DNA from: Drouetiella hepatica Uher 2000/2452
Lineage (GTDB): Bacteria; Cyanobacteriota; Cyanobacteriia; Elainellales; Elainellaceae
Length of the DNA: 64,000 bases
Direction of reading: 5' to 3'
Assembly: GCA_019359505.1 (NCBI GenBank)
Contig: JAHHHD010000001.1
Location: 310,001 to 374,000, forward strand
Both the position numbers and the translations under genes were made by a program. Each line of letters begins with the position of its first letter. Within the stretch, counting starts at the first letter, position 1. Under the pieces are notes generated by a model, which was given only the letters and a program-made list of their open reading frames with translations, was not told the DNA's origin and searched no databases. Shown here in pieces: positions 6,624 to 48,508 of this stretch.

Positions 6624-6735
6624 AGGACTTACGCAGATTGAAGCGAAATCCGCCCCCCAACCCCCAATTCTGGGGGAGCCGGAGTTCAAAGTCCCCTAGA
6701 ATTGCGAGATTTGGGGAGCAGATGCGTAAGTCCTA
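6624..6735. repeat. Small element with AGGACTTACGCA terminal inverted repeats
   Basis: AGGACTTACGCA (6624-6635) and its reverse complement at 6723-6735 bound 112 bp. The interior (about 6651-6720) is a C-rich then G-rich imperfect palindrome. It closely resembles the reverse complement of the palindrome at 47892-47963 that borders the DUF559 gene. The same termini enclose a different palindrome at 60676-60766. The structure resembles a miniature inverted-repeat element; no transposase is present. Confidence 0.7.
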
Positions 6736-6739
6736 TTTA

Positions 6740-6782
6740 GAACATCTTGGGTGGCGCGCTCCGCGCGCCACCCAAGATGTTC
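6740..6782. repeat. 20-bp perfect hairpin, TCC loop
   Basis: Arms at 6740-6759 and 6763-6782 pair perfectly and include GGTGGCGCGC, with a 3-nt TCC loop. The copy is followed by CCGTCCTAACC, the start of the trailer found on the other members of the family. It lies between the convergent SLBB and histidine kinase genes and could also act as a bidirectional transcription block, although there is no T-tract. Confidence 0.75.
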
Positions 6783-47515: not shown

Positions 47516-47880
47516 TTACATCAGAGACTCGCCGTTGAGACTCAAAGACTCGCTGTTGAGGTTTCAGGGTTCAGCGTCGATGCTTTTCAGTACGTCGTCG
47601 ATACTTTTCAGTACGCCGTTGATGTTTTTCAGTGCGCGGTTGATGCTTTCCAGTGAGTTGTTGATACTTTTCAGTGAGTTGTTGATGCTTTCCAATGAGT
47701 TGTTGATACTTTTCAGTAAGTTGTTGATACTTTTCAGTGAGTTGTTGATACTTTTCAGTGAGTTGTTGATACTTTGAGCTTCAGCGTTGATACTCTGGGG
47801 TTCAGCGACGATACTCTGAGATTCAGCGTTGAGGCTTTGCGGTTCAGCAACGAGTGTATAAGCAAATCCTATGACGATCG
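47516..47880 (-). pseudogene. Broken heptad-repeat coiled-coil gene (21-bp minisatellite)
   Basis: About fifteen 21-bp units cover 47520-47860. On the minus strand they encode SINNSLK heptads with Leu and Ile at a and d positions, an ideal coiled coil. Terminal units degrade to SLNAESQ and NLNSESL. The frame is open from beyond 47860 down to a TGA at 47564-47566 and then to a TAA at 47516-47518. No start codon is present. The front may have been removed at the inverted-repeat element that begins at 47892. The plus-strand reading frame over the same repeat is very hydrophobic and improbable. Confidence 0.5.
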
Positions 47881-47891
47881 TTACACCTGGC

Positions 47892-48428
47892 AGCCCCCTA
47901 AATCCCCCAATTCTGGGGGACTTTGAATTCCGGAAGCCCTCCAGAATTGGGGGGTTGGGGGGCGAATGCAGCAGAGTAGCGGGTACTCTACAAAAGTCTG
48001 TGATCTCTTGACTCTAATGAAATCTAAGCGCATTCGGGGAACTGCTCCCCAGATCGTCGCTGCTGCTCAACAACTGCGGCAAAATCTTACCCCTGCTGAA
48101 CAAATTTTGTGGCAAGCTCTCAAGAATCGACAGCTTAATGGATTGAGGTTTCGCTGTCAGCATCCAGTCGGTTCATTCATCGTGGACTTCTATTGCCCCC
48201 AATGTCGATTGGTAATTGAACTTGATGGAGAAATCCATCAGCAACAGCTTGAGTATGATATCGATCGCACCCAGCAACTCAGTCACTTCGGCTACCGAGT
48301 CATCCGATTTACCAACCAGGAAGTAATAACAGATTTAGACAGGGTTCTCAAGCAAATTCTAAAAGCTAGCCACCCCGAAACCTAACTCTACCTCTCAAAG
48401 TCCCCCAGAATTGGGGGGTTGGGGGGCT
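47892..48428. mobile_element. DUF559 gene unit bounded by C-rich inverted repeats
   Basis: The left end 47892-47925 and the right end 48396-48428 are inverted copies of about 33 bp sharing AATTCTGGGGGACTTTG exactly and C-runs outside it. The left end is itself followed by an opposing half (47934-47963), making a full palindrome. A gene-free relative of this palindrome is at 6651-6720. No target duplication was identified and no transposase is present, so mobility is inferred. Confidence 0.5.
48017..48385 (+). CDS. DUF559 endonuclease-like protein
   Basis: This 122-aa protein starts MKSKRIRGTAPQIVAAAQQL. It carries the DUF559 (very-short-patch-repair-like, PD-(D/E)XK) core: LTPAEQILWQALKNRQLNGL, FRCQHPVGSFIVDFYCPQCR and LVIELDGEIHQQQ with the acidic residues in place. 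Such proteins are common and often multicopy in cyanobacteria, but their substrates are not known. The gene lies between inverted C-rich repeats that end 54 bp before its start codon and begin 11 bp after its stop. Confidence 0.85.
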   Translation: MKSKRIRGTAPQIVAAAQQLRQNLTPAEQILWQALKNRQLNGLRFRCQHPVGSFIVDFYCPQCRLVIELDGEIHQQQLEYDIDRTQQLSHFGYRVIRFTNQEVITDLDRVLKQILKASHPET

Positions 48429-48508
48429 GAGGAGCTTGAAACCTAGCACAGCAACTTGTGTAGAAAGGGCTGGGAGATGAGAGTTTTAGGCAGCATCCCA
48501 TCCAAGAT

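Follow-up and report, generated by a model that had tools for sequence, protein, structure and literature searches.

A DUF559 endonuclease gene lies between inverted C-rich repeats in the window (the whole 64,000-nucleotide stretch of Drouetiella hepatica DNA analysed here), which raises the question of whether gene and repeat form one element. An earlier note on this DNA had suggested that the nuclease may act on, or spread with, the repeat, with an autonomous form at this locus and a miniature form at 6.6 kb. It had proposed a survey of cyanobacterial DUF559 genes, and it had named two findings that would speak against the idea: DUF559 genes of related genomes without the repeat, and a repeat equally common beside all genes.

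The element in the window and its repeat family

The features on which the analysis was based are as follows:

47891–47926, + strand: left outer arm, where the element begins, formed by a C-rich hairpin that has a run of C at its foot; inverted partner of 48395–48430.
47934–47966, − strand: second, inverted arm completing the left palindrome; 83% complementary to the left arm, 10-nt gap.
48017–48385, + strand: DUF559 endonuclease gene, 122 aa (PF04480, E 3.2e-39).
48395–48430, − strand: single arm on the right, where the element ends, in inverted orientation to the left outer arm; 91% complementary to 47895–47926.
6652–6720, unstranded: decayed gene-free copy of the window repeat; core match with one arm exact and 3 mismatches in the other.

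The inverted C-rich ends described in the earlier note were confirmed: the arms at 47895–47926 and 48395–48426 are 32 nt long, 91% complementary and separated by 468 nt. Its description of the left end as a full palindrome also held (47895–47923 with 47934–47962). This palindrome had a folding z of −4.7, none of 200 shuffles folded equally well, and the REPIN-like unit that contains it spans 47891–47966. The second left arm is directly repeated on the right side (47934–47963 again at 48398–48427, 93% identity). With at most 3 mismatches, CCCCCAATTCTGGGGG occurred 5 times in the window versus 0.45 times expected, and none of 100 shuffles reached 5.

The gene starts with ATG at 48017 and stops with TAA at 48383–48385, and a second in-frame ATG at 47966, on the edge of the palindrome, would give a 139-aa version. 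It is the sole ORF of at least 60 aa within the element. The protein scored 133.6 bits against the PF04480 profile, whose curated cut-off is 20.6, and so belongs to DUF559; the search gave one further domain match, a sub-threshold one to MTES_1575. Immediately upstream of the element there is a 21-bp tandem array (47521–47853), with 9.4 copies of GATACTTTTCAGTGAGTTGTT plus relatives.

Across the 6.4-Mb genome, the repeat core (at most 2 mismatches) was found 37 + 41 times, versus 3 + 0 times for the reversed control pattern. The sites formed 47 clusters, 28 of which are convergent arm pairs 32–67 nt apart. Only two of the 47 clusters are those beside the window gene, so we regard the repeat as a REPIN-like dispersed repeat and not as a feature of this gene alone. 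A fixed foot-plus-hairpin pattern fitted just 20 of 41 arms, and our description is therefore limited to C-rich hairpin arms. Genes other than DUF559 were also seen between two units in this genome, namely a 165-aa ORF, and an aldolase-like gene together with a 113-aa ORF. The genome has three DUF559 genes, each between C-rich palindromes of a differing family. The two sides of each gene matched each other with scores of 26, 52 and 55, whereas matches to the far sides of the other two genes scored 8–11, which makes mere repeat abundance a poor explanation.

The miniature form proposed at 6.6 kb was supported only in part. A related gene-free copy does exist there, but it is decayed (folding z −2.4, with 3 of 200 shuffles equally good) and sits inside a different inverted repeat at 6624–6734 (AGGACTTACGCA...TGCGTAAGTCCT), a palindrome inserted in a palindrome rather than a clean miniature. 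Directly after this copy, a perfect GC-rich hairpin was observed at 6741–6781 (AACATCTTGGGTGGCGCGC, loop TCC, complement).

The locus in the window is probably a small selfish element, in which a DUF559 gene with a predicted Vsr/homing-endonuclease fold is bounded by its own C-rich palindromic repeat arms.

Many DUF559 genes are flanked on both sides by their own repeats

A scan of the phylum gave a DUF559 match in 136 of 194 genomes, and the loci of the same class (Cyanobacteriia) analysed below are those among the matches listed. One of them with a short flank (L080) was left out of the flank and own-side tests, which reduced 64 loci to 63. A gene was counted as flanked when an inverted or direct match with a local score of at least 16 was found within 400 bp on each side. 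The best-scoring Uma2 and Y1_Tnp loci of 20 genomes served as controls, and 16 of these genomes also gave DUF559 loci. Five of the 30 Y1_Tnp loci were under 3200 bases and were left out, leaving 25.

Matched repeats were found on both sides of the gene at 54 of the 63 same-class DUF559 loci among the matches listed, versus 0 of 30 Uma2 loci (p = 1e-16) and 3 of 25 Y1_Tnp loci (p = 1e-10). The palindromes around the three flanked Y1_Tnp genes were not C-rich. Solitary DUF559 genes were flanked as well (39 of 47 among the matches listed), and so were 30 of the 34 listed loci from the 16 genomes shared with the controls (p = 3e-14 against Uma2 and 3e-9 against Y1_Tnp). When inverted matches only were counted, 41 of the 63 listed loci were flanked, versus 5 among 325 further short ORFs from these loci; direct repeats are commoner beside ORFs, and counting them too raised this control to 31 of 325. 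No matched pair was found at 9 of the 63 listed loci. In genomes with several DUF559 genes, the repeat matched the gene's own other side in 29 of 32 cases versus 14 of 52 cross-pairs (among the matches listed), so each gene is paired with its own cognate repeat. One locus (L073 of genome G121) carries two different DUF559 genes, 5 kb apart.

The association was also examined outside the class. In other classes of the phylum, an inverted score of at least 14 was reached at 18 of 24 loci, a count with no separate control; this set had been obtained by dropping L058 (studied as L106) and, for short loci, 5 of the other 29. For many phyla together we used the best-scoring 80 named loci, which are not a random sample, and removed 7 with short flanks. 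A score of at least 16 was obtained at 39 of these 73 loci (35 of 65 when the eight cyanobacterial ones were taken away), versus 62 of 3941 control positions taken by sliding along these loci (1.6%), while 34 of the 73 had no matched pair. An inverted score of at least 18 was reached by 24 named loci. According to the record titles, these belong to Cyanobacteriota, Bacteroidota, Chloroflexota, Myxococcota, Planctomycetota, Pseudomonadota, Patescibacteria, Verrucomicrobiota and Armatimonadota, and one is from an unclassified bacterium.

Among the best-scoring 80 named loci, the nearest relatives of the window gene were cyanobacterial (L127–L130), and these four failed the two-sided test with scores of 9–13. 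By eye, they have a C-rich palindrome on one side only, and that of L127 is of the window's own family. The one-sided palindrome of L128 and L130 is of another C-rich family, CCCTCATCCCCTAACCCCTTCTCCC. Since these close relatives have a repeat family other than the window's, a single protein lineage may exchange one repeat family for another.

To compare repeats with proteins, 61 loci among the matches listed were used (L080, L091 and L097 were out for a short flank or stops) and 23 syntenic pairs were dropped. This left 1807 non-syntenic pairs, and repeats were called alike at a score of at least 20. Alike repeats were seen in 6% of the 824 listed pairs with proteins less than 45% identical, but in 78% of those at 60–70% identity, 93% at 70–80% and 6 of 6 above 80%; about 94% of the 33 listed non-syntenic pairs with proteins more than 70% identical share the repeat. 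Repeat similarity and protein similarity thus co-vary (Mantel rho 0.33, p = 0.001, 61 listed loci).

The number of repeat sites was then related to the presence of the gene. Family genomes with a cognate gene (at least 60% identity) contained 60, 48, 48, 27 and 2 sites (median 48), and the 20 family genomes without it contained fewer (median 2, one-sided p = 0.017). The cognate gene of G214 contains a stop codon, and this genome yielded only 2 repeat sites. Four of the 20 genomes were repeat-rich with no cognate gene detected (G203 with 81 sites, G205 with 61, G201 with 42 and G195 with 26). No DUF559 match at all was obtained in G205, G201 and G195, and the assemblies of G195 and G203 are incomplete. 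Because 26–81 sites are held by these four genomes, we do not claim that the repeat depends on its DUF559. Y1_Tnp genes were present in 19 of 20 genomes tested; G213 has a DUF559 gene and repeats with no Y1_Tnp match.

A further lead came from E. coli, where ycjD is a DUF559 gene between sapF and fabI with C-rich palindromes 3' of it (L239, 2500–3600). Its upstream side is not C-rich and has an unrelated inverted repeat just upstream. The ycjD-associated C-rich repeat, which may be the E. coli 'box C', was present in 5375 of 5426 E. coli genomes, with a median of 18 places per genome. The sapF-ycjD-fabI query (L239 2500–3600) was at least 80% covered in 3362 of the 5426. As a case of presence and absence, ycjD was rejected: the three ycjD-free strains looked up have efflux genes after sapF, and so offer no simple empty site.

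The unit lies in unrelated flanks and in frame inside methyltransferase genes

Five loci of close relatives (group A: L069, L078, L089, L093 and L094) have a block of about 600 bp in common, in which a 91-bp palindrome stands on either side of the DUF559 gene. In four comparisons (L069/L094, L069/L093, L078/L094 and L089/L094), the unit was 94.5–97% identical and the block reached as far as the outer palindrome borders or close to them, where homology stopped and the flanks were unrelated. There were exceptions. L069 and L094 share about 30 bp extra on the left, the left palindrome of L093 is partly lost, L069 and L078 are one locus, a stretch common to L093 and L094 ends 1.0–1.4 kb upstream, and more distant pieces of L089 are shared with others. 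The cleanest element was L230 of genome G213, which is 501 bp long with perfect 38-bp inverted ends and a gene 68% identical to that of the window. In L228, L229 and L230, the DUF559 relative has arms of the window's family on either side, and one arm family is common to gene-bearing copies and sites elsewhere, as MITE-like terminal inverted repeats are. Read by eye, the five group A junctions and L230 showed no target-site duplication. To judge from these alignments, gene and repeats appear to have moved together in some cyanobacteria.

Two attempts to find empty sites were made. G195 is the nearest relative with the neighbourhood of the window element and is homologous only from 48515 on, so it provides no empty site. 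The right flanks of group A were found unit-free in other species, but the left flanks are not conserved, and no clean DNA-level empty site was obtained at the exact position. The cyanobacterial genomes compared numbered one per species.

Sixteen of the 64 DUF559 hits among the matches listed lay within ORFs of more than 300 aa. In the 12 ORFs viewed, the C-rich repeat is translated in frame around DUF559, unlike in ordinary fusions. All 13 of the 16 host ORFs that were scanned have methyltransferase or restriction-modification domains, the assignment of the L111 host coming from DUF1156 and a sub-threshold match only. These hosts are not all independent, because those of L067/L068 and those of L101/L104/L110 are homologues at one site. 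The frame ends within the right repeat in L035, and it starts just before DUF559 in L100. At the site of L067 and L068, the insert is missing from homologues in G048, G231 and G153, and other copies in G153 and G228 have, at about the same place, an in-frame Y1_Tnp (RAYT-like) gene with its own palindromes.

Related arrangements were noticed at other loci. In L337 and L338, a Y1_Tnp gene with palindromes is in frame in an Eco57I-type methyltransferase ORF of about 1600 codons, at about the position that the DUF559 unit occupies in homologues. In L124, DUF559 seems to form the endonuclease domain of an apparent intein at DFFCGSGTT, the catalytic motif of an N6/N4 methyltransferase; this intein was suggested by a sub-threshold Intein_splicing match with its ends set by eye, and the C-rich repeat is translated inside it.

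The survey that the earlier note had called for therefore gave the association it expected (54 of 63 among the matches listed versus 0 of 30 and 3 of 25). Neither of the findings named against the idea was obtained, since related DUF559 genes are flanked and the repeat does not accompany other genes to the same extent. Joint spread of gene and repeat was borne out by the palindrome-gene-palindrome unit in unrelated surroundings and by the separate repeat family of each gene. For the wider idea of a nuclease-repeat element the support was partial: association and joint spread agree with it, but the nearest named relatives (L127–L130) are one-sided and 4 of 20 genomes are repeat-rich without the cognate gene.

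The nuclease, its proposed role and known systems

The structure of the window protein was modelled from a 29-row alignment (pLDDT 84.6); a single-sequence structure was too poor (pLDDT 44) and was superseded by this model. The best match of the model was 3hrl, an uncharacterised endonuclease-like structure (Z 15.4). It also matched I-Bth0305I (3r3p; Z 11.7, rmsd 2.4 over 92) and Vsr (1cw0; Z 9.5, rmsd 2.0 over 97), and matched TnsA more weakly (Z 6.3). The fold of the window DUF559 is thus, as modelled, that of a homing endonuclease catalytic domain, and a profile match to I-Bth0305I was obtained too (E 3e-6). E28, D57, E68, D70 and H74 were invariant across the 29 DUF559 rows, and in one weak alignment D57 and D70 are faced by A and N in 3r3p. 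PADLOC gave weak matches only, the best being a homing endonuclease and another a methyl-directed restriction enzyme. A Thermosynechococcus DUF559 gene is assigned to the EDxHD family in an excerpt of PMC9403480. Caulobacter VsrA, also a DUF559 protein, is described in part of PMC12907096 as required for the DNA-damage response when the methyltransferase ScmA is absent.

We propose that the DUF559 protein would recognise its cognate palindrome and cut or nick there. Repair off a gene-bearing copy would then copy the gene into or beside other copies of the palindrome; alternatively, the repair step might carry the unit to new sites. Palindromes that lack the gene may be vacant targets, miniature derivatives or a mixture of the two, and the presumed direction runs from the gene-bearing form to the gene-free one. 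Such a system would resemble REP/RAYT in its workings, except that a nuclease with the fold of a homing endonuclease does the work of the HUH transposase. Cutting or nicking of the palindrome is judged most likely because copies with the gene read arm-gene-arm and copies without it arm-arm, much as a homing gene sits within its own site. We therefore favour, with moderate confidence, a REP/RAYT-like or homing element driven by DUF559, for which recognition, cleavage and the repair step are what we infer.

The main rival is that DUF559 is a true transposase, which excises or copies the arm-gene-arm unit, and gene-free palindromes in trans, and places them in non-homologous DNA. Unit ends at or near the outer palindrome ends in unrelated flanks, the perfect 38-bp ends of L230, the 28 convergent arm pairs of the genome and the residence in several kinds of methyltransferase gene would all suit a transposase, as would the general fold shared weakly with TnsA (Z 6.3). 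We consider it unlikely, however, as neither the group A junctions nor L230 showed a target-site duplication, there are repeat-rich genomes without a cognate DUF559 gene, and stand-alone PD-(D/E)XK nucleases are not known to us to carry out transposition unaided.

It is improbable that another enzyme, RAYT or other, spreads the C-rich palindromes, with DUF559 merely caught between them or exploiting them for recombination. The repeat sequence tracks the DUF559 protein (Mantel p = 0.001), G213 has no Y1_Tnp match, and Uma2 genes (0 of 30) and Y1_Tnp genes (3 of 25, repeats not C-rich) are rarely flanked. This explanation would nevertheless agree with the Y1_Tnp genes in 19 of 20 genomes tested, with the four genomes that have repeats and no cognate gene, with the one-sided arrangement of L127–L130, and with the few other genes that also lie between units.

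A Vsr-like repair or defence nuclease tied to DNA methylation and serving the host, with palindromes as regulatory or terminator elements, seems very doubtful to us. The methyltransferase or restriction-modification domains in 13 of 13 scanned host ORFs, the role of Caulobacter VsrA in the absence of ScmA (PMC12907096, in part) and the weak PADLOC match to a methyl-directed restriction enzyme point towards it, but the palindromes travel with the gene to unrelated sites, are multi-copy, and stand on both sides of the gene in most same-class loci among the matches listed. Accidental flanking of short genes by dense C-rich repeats can be dismissed: repeats are common in these genomes and direct ones are not rare beside short ORFs (31 of 325 for either kind), but the controls (0 of 30, 3 of 25, 62 of 3941, and 5 of 325 ORFs for inverted matches) and the excess of own-side pairing over cross-pairs (29 of 32 versus 14 of 52, among the matches listed) refute it.

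REP-type palindromes are common bacterial repeats, and to our knowledge only the RAYT-linked ones have a proposed engine. On our favoured reading of a DUF559-driven element, we tentatively suggest that DUF559, alongside RAYTs, may be another engine behind the palindromic repeats of bacteria, one that spans phyla, each gene with its own C-rich REP/REPIN population, spreading repeats between genes and in frame inside them. This is quite possible rather than probable. If true, it would account for common repeats of obscure origin, possibly including the C-rich repeat beside E. coli ycjD; it would give a function to a family of 'unknown function' and an origin to the C-rich repeats beside DUF559 genes in about nine phyla. 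It would also offer a case, open to testing, in which one small nuclease sustains a scattered set of palindromes and resides in frame within methyltransferase genes of restriction-modification systems, as a RAYT-like gene was seen to do as well. Related genes stand beside or between their own versions of such repeats in many bacteria, and gene and repeats seem to have travelled together in some cyanobacteria; this suggests a kind of selfish DNA that is widespread but has drawn little attention. In full-text searches of the literature collection covered, no report of a link between DUF559 and repeats was found.

Among known systems, the RAYT/REP/REPIN system is similar in having one small gene with palindromic repeats of its own around it, one family per gene, in having many gene-free copies that are often two inverted hairpins, and in occupying about the same in-frame position in homologous methyltransferases. 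The enzyme is different: that of RAYT is a Y1 HUH transposase, whereas here it is DUF559 with the predicted Vsr/homing-endonuclease fold, and no Y1 (HUH) domain was found in the window gene, which matched PF04480 and, below threshold, MTES_1575. The repeats of the window family also differ from REPs in being C-rich. An excerpt of PMC3733652 defines the REP tag as a GTAG (or CGTC) tetranucleotide at the hairpin foot, and this tag was absent from the window arms as read. Rickettsia palindromic elements and intragenic REPs resemble the units in methyltransferase genes as palindromic repeats in frame inside ORFs (PMC3733652, in part), but the same excerpt does not mention a DUF559-type nuclease gene between them.

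MITEs are alike in their short inverted-repeat elements beside a gene-bearing form, such as L230; they differ in that no target-site duplication was seen here and the partner enzyme is no DDE transposase, the window gene having shown no DDE or other classical transposase domain. Vsr has the same fold according to the model (1cw0, Z 9.5), but the window gene is bounded by repeats, occurs at unrelated sites and has no known T:G mismatch context. I-Bth0305I (EDxHD) shares with the window DUF559, again in the model, the fold of the catalytic domain. In I-Bth0305I the nuclease domain is tethered to further DNA-binding parts (PMC3943268, in part), whereas the window gene is bare and bounded by dispersed palindromes. 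With homing genes, finally, the likeness is one of anatomy: the arm-gene-arm order of L230 against the arm-arm order of gene-free copies fits a site split by its own gene.
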